Shown here piece by piece: positions 18,553-36,994 of a stretch of 64,000 nucleotides of DNA. The stretch is from a virus: positions 48,654-112,653 of the IMG/VR virus record IMGVR_UViG_3300035181_001203; one strand, written 5' to 3'. Below the pieces are notes generated by a model. The model worked only from the letters and a program-made list of their open reading frames with translations, did not search any database and had not been told where the DNA came from. Position 1 is the first letter of the stretch; each line of letters opens with the position of its first letter. Both the position numbers and the translations under genes were made by a program.

Positions 18553-18894
18553 ATGTTAATAACAGATTTAAGAGAAATCATTATAAACGAACGTCCTTGC
18601 GAGCAGGGATTAGCATGGTTCGATAAAGTTTCAAGAGGCCATGTTAATACTACAAGTTTTTTTAAATCCTTAAAAAAGATAAAACATAATAAATCGTCTT
18701 TTACACCTCACTGTTATCTTCGTTGGATCTTTTACCATTGTCTAGATTGGAGCAATTTTAAAGAATCAACCTCTCGGTCTGTTTTCGGACCTAAATACTA
18801 TAAATTTATAAAAGAAAAATTTCATGTTACTTTTTTAGTAGATCTTCCTGTCTCAAAATTGTGTGACGCATTAATTCGCGCTTTTGAGGATTAA
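18553..18894 (+). CDS. Hypothetical protein, 113 aa
   Basis: Basic, aromatic-rich protein (HCYLRWIFYHCLDWSNF) with a strong AAAGGAGAG site. No family recognised. It may be expressed by read-through of the terminator just before it. Confidence 0.5.
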   Translation: MLITDLREIIINERPCEQGLAWFDKVSRGHVNTTSFFKSLKKIKHNKSSFTPHCYLRWIFYHCLDWSNFKESTSRSVFGPKYYKFIKEKFHVTFLVDLPVSKLCDALIRAFED

Positions 18895-20148: not shown

Positions 20149-20394
20149 ATGAAATTCCGAAAGAAGCCAGTTGTGATTGACGCGGAACTCTATGATGGGA
20201 CAGCCGCAAGCGTGGAACGAGTGATAGAAATGGGAGGAACGCGGGGGATTAACAACAGCCCGGAAGGGCTTTACATCGTGACCCTCGAAGGGACGATGAG
20301 AGCGGATAAGGGCGATTGGATTATCAAGGGCGTGAAAGGGGAGTTGTACCCCTGCAAGCCTGACATTTTCGAGGCAACATACGAAGAAGCCTGA
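20149..20394 (+). CDS. Phage PGDYG-type conserved protein, 81 aa
   Basis: The start (MKFRKKPVVIDAELYDG) and the end (GDWIIKGVKGELYPCKPDIFEATYE, here by its key residues G-D-W-I-x-K-G-x-K-G-E-Y-P-C-K-P-x-I-F) match a small protein widespread in phages of GC-richer hosts. Its function is unknown. The high GC and codon use contrast with the surrounding genome. Confidence 0.75.
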   Translation: MKFRKKPVVIDAELYDGTAASVERVIEMGGTRGINNSPEGLYIVTLEGTMRADKGDWIIKGVKGELYPCKPDIFEATYEEA

Positions 20395-24970: not shown

Positions 24971-24982
24971 ATTCGTTATAAT
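24953..24982 (+). promoter_or_regulatory. Promoter of cassette A
   Basis: TTGCAA, 18 bases, TATAATATATATGG. It overlaps the end of the preceding gene. A 5' hairpin (GGUGGAGAG with CUUUCUAC, 24989-25011) begins at the expected start site. Confidence 0.75.
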
Positions 24983-34072: not shown

Positions 34073-34406
34073 GAAATTCCTTAATAATAATTATAAATAC
34101 TCTAGGGTTCTAATTTCAGCTATAGAAATTAAAGGAATTTTACATCTTCTCGTACCATCACAGTGTCCTTGCTGTGATGGTATGGGAAAGTATCTTTGCG
34201 AATCTATGAGGGATCATGTTTTTACACAAGAAGATCTTCAGAAAGATCCAAATTTTCATGAAGATATGATTCGAGGAAAATATGATGTTCCTTGCGAAGT
34301 TTGTATGGCTGAAGGCTATGTAATGACATTGGCACATGATGAAATAAATAAAGATTTGTTAAATGGCTGGCATAGACAAATTCAAATAGAAATGGGAGAA
34401 TTATGA
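34047..34406 (+). CDS. DnaJ-type zinc-finger protein, 119 aa
   Basis: CPCCDGMGKY (residues ~40-49) and CEVCMAEGYV (~88-97) are a CxxCxGxG pair as in the DnaJ cysteine-rich domain; one zinc is expected. There is no J-domain here, though one is encoded at 26372-27232. Overlaps the DHH gene by 4 bases. Confidence 0.6.
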   Translation: MLKLHPSLEKFLNNNYKYSRVLISAIEIKGILHLLVPSQCPCCDGMGKYLCESMRDHVFTQEDLQKDPNFHEDMIRGKYDVPCEVCMAEGYVMTLAHDEINKDLLNGWHRQIQIEMGEL

Positions 34407-35350
34407 CTTCAATTATTTTTCATTCTAGCTGCCCTGATGGAATCGTCGCAAAAGAAATGATGCGATCTTCTGCGGATCTTTTGAACTATATCTCGATTGA
34501 ATGTGTCCCTTTTCAATATGGAGGAAAAATTGCAGATCGTCATTTAAATTTTCAAAGTATTTGGGTAGATTGCTGCCCTGAAGATGAGGAAGACTTTTAC
34601 AATGGTCTTACTCATGGCTGCATCTATATTGATCACCATGAAACAGTAAAAACCAAGTTTCAGAAATGGTATTCTAAGTTTCCTGAGCAACTTATTTTTG
34701 GCGAAACTGCATTTGGAAATAGTGGATCAAGTTTAACCTACGATTATCTCATTAAGCAGTTCCGTAAAGAAAACGTTGACAATAGAGATATCAAGGATTT
34801 TGATGAAATCTACCTTGATATTAAGAAACTTGTCGCATTAGCTGATACTTGGCAAGTTGATCATAAGGATTTCAAAAAGGCTCGGGCAATGTCATCACTT
34901 ATTGCTACGGTTGGTAATGAAATTGATATTCCTAAATGTCATCATGGTCTTTTGAACATGGCTCTTGCCTTTGAAAAGAATAAGCAACAGCAAGATGCTC
35001 GTAAAGCTGAAAATATTCATCTTCATGCTATTGGCAATTTGAATGTTGCGATTCTGAACGATAACCATATTTCAGATATTGCAGAAATTCTTAGAAATAG
35101 AGAAGAAAATCACGCTGACTTAATTGTTGGCTTTTTTTATGTCCCTGATGGGGATACTTTTAAAGTAGTTTATTCATTGCGATCAAATGATGTATTTGAT
35201 TGCAGTAAATATGCTAAATCAAACAACGGTGGCGGTCATGTTAAAGCTGCTGGTTTTTCAGTCAGAATTGGATATACTGATACTATATTTGATCCAATTA
35301 ATTATTTCAAAACTAATCTTTCAACATATTTAAAAGAGACTCTATCCTAA
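34403..35350 (+). CDS. DHH-family phosphoesterase
   Basis: FHSSCPDGIVAKEM opens the DHH domain; WVDCCPEDE and YIDHHETVK (the DHH motif, residues ~75-80) supply metal ligands; GGGHVKAAGF near residue 272 is the DHHA1 substrate motif. NrnA-type members degrade nanoRNA or cyclic dinucleotides, RecJ-type members single-stranded DNA; which applies is not decidable here. A cyclic-dinucleotide or short-RNA target would be relevant to defence or nucleotide recycling. The 114 bases after it hold only a startless 30-codon frame. Confidence 0.85.
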   Translation: MTSIIFHSSCPDGIVAKEMMRSSADLLNYISIECVPFQYGGKIADRHLNFQSIWVDCCPEDEEDFYNGLTHGCIYIDHHETVKTKFQKWYSKFPEQLIFGETAFGNSGSSLTYDYLIKQFRKENVDNRDIKDFDEIYLDIKKLVALADTWQVDHKDFKKARAMSSLIATVGNEIDIPKCHHGLLNMALAFEKNKQQQDARKAENIHLHAIGNLNVAILNDNHISDIAEILRNREENHADLIVGFFYVPDGDTFKVVYSLRSNDVFDCSKYAKSNNGGGHVKAAGFSVRIGYTDTIFDPINYFKTNLSTYLKETLS

Positions 35351-35464: not shown

Positions 35465-35737
35465 ATGCAGATTTCTAGTTTAGATGCAGAAAAATTTATT
35501 AAAAATATTATGCATAGCAATAGTTTTACGACAAAGCAAATTCTAAAGATCTTGGCTACTTCAGCAGATGAATTAGAATTTCCATTTCCCTATGAACAAA
35601 TTATGATGAGTCCAACTAGTCGTAAGGATAGTTTTATACTTTATATTAAAAACGACTCATCTAAAACAGGGGATTTAAAACTGAAAAAGCTGGTTAAAGA
35701 GATACTTGAAGAGAATAATCATCCAATTTTCATCTAA
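35465..35737 (+). CDS. Hypothetical protein, 90 aa
   Basis: Helical protein with AGGGGAAAT upstream. No family recognised. Its stop lies in the first arm of a perfect hairpin. Confidence 0.5.
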   Translation: MQISSLDAEKFIKNIMHSNSFTTKQILKILATSADELEFPFPYEQIMMSPTSRKDSFILYIKNDSSKTGDLKLKKLVKEILEENNHPIFI

Positions 35738-35770
35738 ACTATTGGCTCCCGAAAGGGAGCCAATAGTTTA
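35736..35770 (+). terminator. Perfect 15-bp hairpin at gene end
   Basis: AAACTATTGGCTCCC and its complement around GAAA. Few T residues follow, so it may be a 3' stabiliser or a weak terminator. Confidence 0.6.
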
Positions 35771-35773
35771 GCT

Positions 35774-35803
35774 ATGCAATTTATTGTATTTATTTGTTAT
35801 AAT
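35774..35803 (+). promoter_or_regulatory. Promoter of the RNA cassette
   Basis: ATGCAA, 18 bases, TATAATATATATG. No gene with a ribosome binding site lies between it and the terminator at 35994-36052. Confidence 0.75.
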
Positions 35804-35809
35804 ATATAT

Positions 35810-36052
35810 GAAGAACGGTTTAGGGAATAACCGGCCTTGATTCCTGCGTTCTCAGGAATAAAGAAATTGGGTTATTGACCCAAAGGGTCAACCTAATTCC
35901 CTATAGAGTAGGCGATCTCTATAAATCCTAAAAAGGAAAAAAAGACGCAGCTTGGATTAGGCGAGTGGGATAGCTGATCACAAGTAGTTAGACGGGAACC
36001 ACCGACCCGGCCAATGGCGAAGTTTTATAAAGCGGTGTCCCATTTTTCTTTT
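35810..36052 (+). ncRNA. Autonomous structured RNA, about 240 nt
   Basis: A promoter on the left and a terminator on the right (GGGA-CACCG with CGGTG-TCCC, then ATTTTTCTTTT) enclose no supported gene. Helices seen directly: CGGTT/AACCG (35816-35833), ATTCCTG/CAGGAAT (35840-35859), TATAGAG/CTCTATA (35902-35923) and a long-range TAGGGAAT/ATTCCCTA (35821-35828 with 35896-35903). Two overlapping hairpins exclude each other: TTGGGT/ACCCAA (35867-35883) and TTGACCC/GGGTCAA (35875-35891), as in a switch. No family recognised. Confidence 0.55.
35994..36052 (+). terminator. Terminator of the RNA cassette
   Basis: Bulged 9-bp stem (35994-36004 with 36033-36041) and a T-rich tail. Confidence 0.6.
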
Positions 36053-36101: not shown

Positions 36102-36548
36102 ATGGAACGTCAAACTATTATAATGTTCGATCTTGAACAAACGATTATAGATAGCTGGAATTCTGGTTGTCCACTATTTAAGAAAATAACATTTATGAAT
36201 AATTATATAAATCAGTTATCATTAGATAGCATAAAATTTGGTATCTTTTCATTTGCAATTGATCTCGAACATGAAAAACAAGAGGGAATTAATTTAGCAT
36301 CACATATAAATCGTAATATTGATCCTAAGTTTGTTACTTGCTGGAAAGAATTAGAAGATCTTTGTAAATTTAAGACTGATTCATTACAAAAATGGGAAAT
36401 TGTAAATCTATTTGGAAAAGATGGTATGTTTCTTCTTTGGAGTAATCAATTTCCTGATTTTGATTTTATTCTTTTTGATGATGCTCTCAATTTTAAAAAA
36501 CAAATTATTCAACGTGATGGGCAGACAATCACTATGATAAGAGTTTAG
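36102..36548 (+). CDS. HAD-like protein, 148 aa
   Basis: MFDLEQTIID resembles HAD motif I, with Glu in place of the usual second Asp (DxExT); FDDAL near residue 126 resembles motif IV. The substitution may change or abolish phosphatase activity. Start ATG after GGAGATAAA. A phosphatase or a dead homologue. Confidence 0.5.
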   Translation: MERQTIIMFDLEQTIIDSWNSGCPLFKKITFMNNYINQLSLDSIKFGIFSFAIDLEHEKQEGINLASHINRNIDPKFVTCWKELEDLCKFKTDSLQKWEIVNLFGKDGMFLLWSNQFPDFDFILFDDALNFKKQIIQRDGQTITMIRV

Positions 36549-36736: not shown

Positions 36737-36780
36737 ATATATGGTGGAGAGAATAGGCTTTCTACCATTATGGAGGGGAC

Positions 36781-36972
36781 ATGCACTCTCGCGCTAAGAC
36801 ATGGTGCATCGCCGGGAACGGTGTGGTCTTTGAGGTGGTGAACCTCAAGGGCTTCATCAACATGACCTTCCCCACCCTAAAAATGGGGGGATTTGTGCCG
36901 CGATTTCGCGGCACAAGCAGTACATTCTCCCGAACGGCTTTGTCGTTCGGGAGAAGAAGAATGGCTGAATAA
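36781..36972 (+). CDS. Cassette B gene, 63 aa, perhaps frameshifted
   Basis: ATG after GGAGGGGAC. The first 34 residues look coding. After CTAAAAATGGGGGG (36879-36892) a second frame gives a more protein-like end, YILPNGFVVREKKNG, so a frameshift or sequencing indel in the homopolymers is possible. Two GC hairpins lie inside the gene (TTGTGCCGCG/CGCGGCACAA; CTCCCGAACG/CGTTCGGGAG). GC content is high. Confidence 0.4.
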   Translation: MHSRAKTWCIAGNGVVFEVVNLKGFINMTFPTLKMGGFVPRFRGTSSTFSRTALSFGRRRMAE

Positions 36973-36983
36973 GCCATTTTTTT
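36960..36983 (+). terminator. Terminator of cassette B
   Basis: AATGGCT/AGCCATT around GAATA and seven T residues. Confidence 0.85.
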
Positions 36984-36994
36984 AACTATTACAT

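Follow-up and report, generated by a model that had tools for sequence, protein, structure and literature searches.

A phage gene that appears to encode a pseudoknotted noncoding RNA of about 240 nucleotides

Positions 35774-36052 of the stretch analysed here are best described, on the sequence evidence, as a stand-alone gene for a structured noncoding RNA. The stretch, referred to as the window, is 64,000 nucleotides long and corresponds to positions 48,654-112,653 of a 112,653-base phage record from an uncultured bacterial virus. The RNA has its own promoter, lacks an open reading frame and has a diverged homologue in a related phage that carries the same promoter and 3' end, together with compensatory base-pair changes in a pseudoknot; this combination comes from two distinct sequences. 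A stand-alone RNA gene had been proposed in the preliminary description of this region, and that proposal is supported. The explanation we favour, held at about even confidence, is that the transcript, some 240 nt in length, acts in trans by virtue of its fold, the likeliest partner being a protein of the host or of the phage. The features referred to below are as follows, all on the + strand.

35774-35803, promoter: ATGCAA (35774-35779), 18-base spacer, TATAAT (35798-35803; TATAATATATATG), then ATATATG
35810-36052, noncoding RNA of about 240 nt: predicted start G35810, predicted end in a T-rich run, no ORF of at least 30 aa, homologue found
35816-35833, P1 hairpin CGGUU-UAGGGAAU-AACCG: stem invariant, loop changed in the homologue
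35834-35962, helix P4, a long-range pairing of 35834-35850 with 35944-35962 that would enclose the core, predicted by the energy model only
35867-35883, alternative hairpin UUGGGU..ACCCAA, probably not formed: unstable, and not part of the fold predicted for the homologue
35876-35890, hairpin UGACCC-AAA-GGGUCA: the conserved one of an overlapping pair, with the homologue equivalent UGGCUA-GUA-UAGCUA
35896-35903, pseudoknot 3' strand AUUCCCUA, pairing with loop 35821-35828
35902-35923, P2 hairpin UAUAGAG..CUCUAUA: stem identical, loop length different in the homologue
35994-36041, conserved 3' element GGGAACCACCGACCCGGCC..GGCGAA..CGGUGUCCC: a 19-base block is identical in the homologue, and GGCGAA/CGGUG are common to both
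36042-36052, T-rich run, terminator-like: follows the 3' stem, as TTTTTT follows the same stem in the homologue

The promoter belongs to a class that recurs in this phage and its relatives. The 14-base core of its -10 region, TTATAATATATATG, occurs six times on the forward strand of the phage record and never on the reverse, and a reversed control pattern is absent from the record. Five of the six exact cores lie inside the window, at 24975, 35796, 36729, 37017 and 37516, and the sixth is at contig position 20284, with a near-copy at contig 16127. When up to two mismatches are allowed, GTTATAATATATATG has eight sites in the window, against 1.5 expected. TGCAA stands at a constant distance upstream of each core (TGCAA-N16-GTTATAAT), and the arrangement TGCAA-N16-GTTATAATATATATG recurs at five sites of the window as well as in related phages. 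A consensus promoter at 35774 had been claimed earlier, and the strand bias of its core and the repetition of that core at other units bear this out. A scan of IMG/VR with the promoter pattern, also written TGCAA-N16-GTTATAATATANATG, returned 20 stretches, among them the 157-kb contig of a related phage (G005) and contigs syntenic with the window. In G005, 18 promoter sites are present at no more than one mismatch, all on one strand. Two stretches from the first promoter scan, L007 and L009, differ in spacing and fall outside the class. In bacterial genomes the pattern gave only seven scattered matches, with no RNA homologue behind them. Many of the promoter units share a plan in which the promoter is followed by a hairpin at the extreme 5' end, a ribosome-binding site, a short ORF and often then a terminator.

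Two further observations concern the transcriptional setting. A perfect 17-bp inverted repeat (35734-35771) lies immediately upstream of the RNA promoter and overlaps the stop of the upstream gene; it is probably the terminator of that gene, abutting the next promoter. Elsewhere in the same phage, on the minus strand at L016:13786-14454, a 222-aa protein matches sigma-70 region 3 (Pfam E 1.6e-6), so that this phage may have a sigma factor of its own.

Behind the promoter, the + strand contains no ORF of at least 30 aa between 35738 and 36101, in agreement with the earlier statement that about 240 bases here hold no credible gene. The homologous RNA has at most a four-codon ORF near its start. 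Towards the 3' end, CACCG (36000-36004) pairs with CGGTG (36033-36037), and GGGA with TCCC, across a long loop, and a T-rich run follows at 36043-36052; the homologue has the same stem, then TTTTTT. The terminator that had been described at this point is present to the extent that a stem precedes a T-rich run in both RNAs, but it is not of the canonical short-loop kind. A simple terminator scan listed none on the + strand at the RNA 3' end, owing to the long loop of that stem. This element also bears on whether the transcript could be a messenger for a very short peptide, since ATGGCGAA.., which would open a 17-codon frame at 36014 and a 7-codon frame in the homologue, is common to both RNAs. 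These shared letters, however, belong to the conserved 3' stem, no ribosome-binding site accompanies them, and the lengths and residues of the two peptides are wholly different, making this reading very unlikely.

The homologue was identified at L020:8732-8957, behind a promoter at L020:8697, and is identical in G005. With the window sequence alone as query, nhmmer finds it at 6.6e-8, and the local alignment of the two RNAs scores 320, whereas none of 500 shuffles exceeds 181. The phages themselves are well diverged: DnaE is 59% identical over the available part, SSB 54%, and other proteins 25-72%. The 5' hairpin, the second hairpin and the 3' element are common to both RNAs, and each phage has the RNA somewhere between SSB and DnaE, though the genes next to it differ. 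When a covariance model was run over 17 related records, it matched only in the window, G004 and G005. G001 and G008 are contigs that cover the SSB-DnaE interval, yet the model found nothing in either, and the RNA thus looks like an accessory gene. Scans with the 3' motif and the P2 motif found only the L020/G005 homologue, plus matches judged by their context to lie in unrelated sequence. A 12.7-bit covariance-model match in Vibrio phage D181 was noise. Searches of IMG/VR proteins with the products of 34403-35347 and 36102-36545 returned no relatives, and a DHH protein search with an alignment of the window and L008 sequences returned only L008's own contig.

The surroundings of the homologue are informative on whether the RNA might be a 5' leader, or an attenuator, of gene 36102-36548 just downstream, its terminator-like 3' end serving as the regulated step. 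That gene begins about 50 bases past the T-rich run, and read-through would transcribe it. In the other phage, however, the RNA precedes a different gene, L020:8978-9166, which has no match to the 36102 product at E 1e-5. The homologue of gene 36102-36548 (44% identical) is at about 137 kb in G005 and the RNA, for which the model finds a single copy there, at 102.7-102.9 kb, some 34 kb away. The two phages thus show no conserved link between the RNA and the same downstream gene, and this separation, with the differing neighbours, argues that the RNA is not the leader of 36102. The leader reading is accordingly considered unlikely.

Evidence for a fold comes from the P1 loop. The eight bases at 35821-35828 form the 5' strand of a predicted pseudoknot with the downstream strand at 35896-35903. 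In the homologue the loop reads UAGAGGUU and the aligned downstream strand AACCUCUA, so that all eight pairs are kept in both RNAs, three of them having changed on both sides. When the partner strands are slid by 1-3 bases, pairing over the four named helices falls from 100% to 30-46%. When either sequence is shuffled, about 1% of the shuffles contain a perfect partner for the P1 loop; this figure does not demand the homologous place and concerns a pairing spotted after both RNAs had been compared. In a column-shuffle control, 77 of 500 shuffles reached the observed value; with only two distinct sequences known, this control is powerless, and the covariation amounts to three pairs of one helix. 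In this model the P1 loop would be paired along its entire length, with no linkers, and the end pairs of the pseudoknot may therefore not all form. When the pseudoknot does form, five pairs of P2 are left (35904-35908 with 35917-35921; UAGAG/CUCUA), and in the model these would stack on the abutting pseudoknot helix. Enclosing this core, P4 has a counterpart predicted by energy rules only at the equivalent place in the homologue, in unrelated sequence. A second 8-bp loop pairing, UUCUAUGC/GCAUAGAA, is seen in L020 but not in the window and may be due to chance.

Folding energy contributes less to this picture. The window RNA folds moderately better than its shuffles (z -2.31 and -2.41), and the values for the homologue (z -0.87 and -1.08) are not significant; by folding energy alone the observation of an RNA would be weak. 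It is the matching paired mutations in the related phage that make the fold probably real.

The position of P1 at the start of the transcript also raises the possibility of an RNA anti-CRISPR, or Racr, in which a mimic of a CRISPR repeat titrates Cas proteins. The window RNA does start with a small hairpin and follows a strong promoter, but it is far more complex than a solitary repeat and the loop of its 5' hairpin is engaged in the pseudoknot, so this identity must be judged extremely improbable.

Several perfect hairpins had been reported between promoter and terminator, and these were recovered at 35816-35833, 35841-35860, 35867-35883, 35876-35890 and 35902-35923. It was further correct that two of them share a segment, at about 35877-35883. 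The suggestion built on this overlap, of mutually exclusive hairpins at 35867-35883 and 35876-35890 between which the RNA would switch, fared less well. Although both hairpins exist and overlap, hairpin 35867-35883 alone reaches only -6.6 kcal/mol. The best fold of that stretch, at -14.7 kcal/mol, is about 8 kcal/mol more stable; there the 5' arm of 35867-35883 is paired with downstream sequence and stacked on hairpin 35876-35890. In the homologue, the predicted fold has a single hairpin here, the equivalent of 35876-35890. A pair of helices of similar stability, both conserved, as in a riboswitch-type element, was not found, and on these grounds a two-state switch is not supported and is highly doubtful.

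The distribution of conserved sequence provides some indication of how the RNA might work. The best-kept sequence falls in two places, the core made of pseudoknot and P2 and the 3' element with its largely unpaired ACCCG and GAA, whereas the middle of the RNA varies freely. This pattern suggests an RNA recognised by its shape, most simply by a protein; an antisense RNA that relies on a free seed would account for it less well. The main rival to this explanation is a trans-acting base-pairing sRNA, an unpaired segment of which would pair with a host or phage mRNA and alter its translation or decay. Most characterised phage sRNAs do act by base pairing, often with Hfq (PMC12197685), and the dedicated promoter and T-rich 3' end would suit such a role. 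No free conserved seed is evident in the RNA, however, and the best-kept blocks lie in helices, the pseudoknot or the 3' stem; this reading is regarded as possible, if rather unlikely.

Under the favoured explanation, a promoter of the class used throughout the phage group would drive an RNA of about 240 nt free of reading frames, in which the covarying pseudoknot would join the loop of the 5' hairpin to a downstream strand, and the invariant 3' element could double as the terminator. The RNA would accumulate during infection as a compact molecule whose fold would let it act in trans; the likeliest mode is that it binds a protein of the host or the phage, either as a decoy or as part of an RNP. 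The earlier idea of a small regulatory or decoy RNA is plausible in this light. A bolder proposal, to be entertained only tentatively, is that a new family of phage RNAs, of which these two are the first members, consists of folded effectors acting on a host protein or complex within an RNA arsenal under one promoter. According to this proposal, a single stereotyped promoter would drive unrelated structured RNAs (the RNA at 35774, that at 36743-36985 and one of about 820 nt) together with many short genes.

Other candidate structured transcripts were noticed behind promoters of the same class. The next promoter unit in the window (36743-36985) is a string of very stable hairpins, with an MFE of -120.3 kcal/mol over 243 nt (z -9.15). 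It overlaps a doubtful 63-aa ORF (36781-36972), gave no match in a phage blastn search and is possibly a second structured RNA. Outside the window but in the same phage, contig positions 16161-17049 (L016:16161-17049) hold a region of about 820-890 nt that is flanked by tRNA-Arg and tRNA-Leu, follows a near-copy of this promoter and has no ORF in the sense direction. Its fold is far more stable than those of shuffles (z -8.6 and -8.1), it has no Rfam match even at a relaxed threshold and no phage blastn match, and it is a candidate new large ornate RNA. In G005, near 18650 (L095, minus strand, from 1663), a like promoter precedes about 480 nt of apparently noncoding sequence that runs up to a tRNA gene (z -4.2). 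Two short structured transcripts are predicted behind the same promoter in other contigs, at L101 from 7060 (equivalent to L023:7773, contig G007; z -3.6) and at L100:5641-5900 (contig G008; z -4.4). Both are unrelated in sequence to the window RNA; the one in G008, immediately upstream of DnaE, may code for a peptide of 25 aa.

Most studied phage genes of unknown function make proteins, and the gene described here would instead yield a folded RNA. The retention of a pseudoknotted RNA with a dedicated promoter across phages whose replication proteins are 54-59% identical points to a selected function of the RNA during infection. The promoter signature is specific enough that more such transcripts could be collected from metagenomes, and one odd intergenic region would thereby become a class that can be searched for.

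Database searches place the RNA outside the families with which it was compared. Rfam 15 at the gathering threshold gave no match in the window, and a relaxed Rfam search with the RNA and its homologue gave only sub-threshold chance matches. ARAGORN found no tRNA or tmRNA genes in the window, and blastn against phages and plasmids returned nothing credible for the RNA, the single 29-base phage match lying inside a protein gene. Judged by its sequence, the RNA belongs to the broad kind of phage structured noncoding RNAs and to no described family among those tested.

GOLLD RNAs are associated with tRNA genes. GOLLD and ROOL, large ornate RNAs linked to phages and prophages (PMC12286853), are highly structured, as the window RNA appears to be, and the RNA of about 820 nt in this phage is similar to them in size and in its position among tRNA genes. 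The window RNA, by contrast, is only about 240 nt long, and neither it nor the larger RNA matches any Rfam family. Phage sRNAs offer precedents for base pairing and for competition for RNA chaperones (PMC12197685). Among them, VpdS, PreS, OOP and others are likewise small phage-encoded noncoding RNAs with their own promoters, but they act mainly by base pairing, several of them via Hfq, whereas the window RNA is predicted to be pseudoknotted, is without a known target and has no sequence relative among the records searched. RNA anti-CRISPRs are also small noncoding phage RNAs, often situated directly downstream of a promoter (PMC10651486), a placement shared by the window RNA, the predicted fold of which is far more elaborate.
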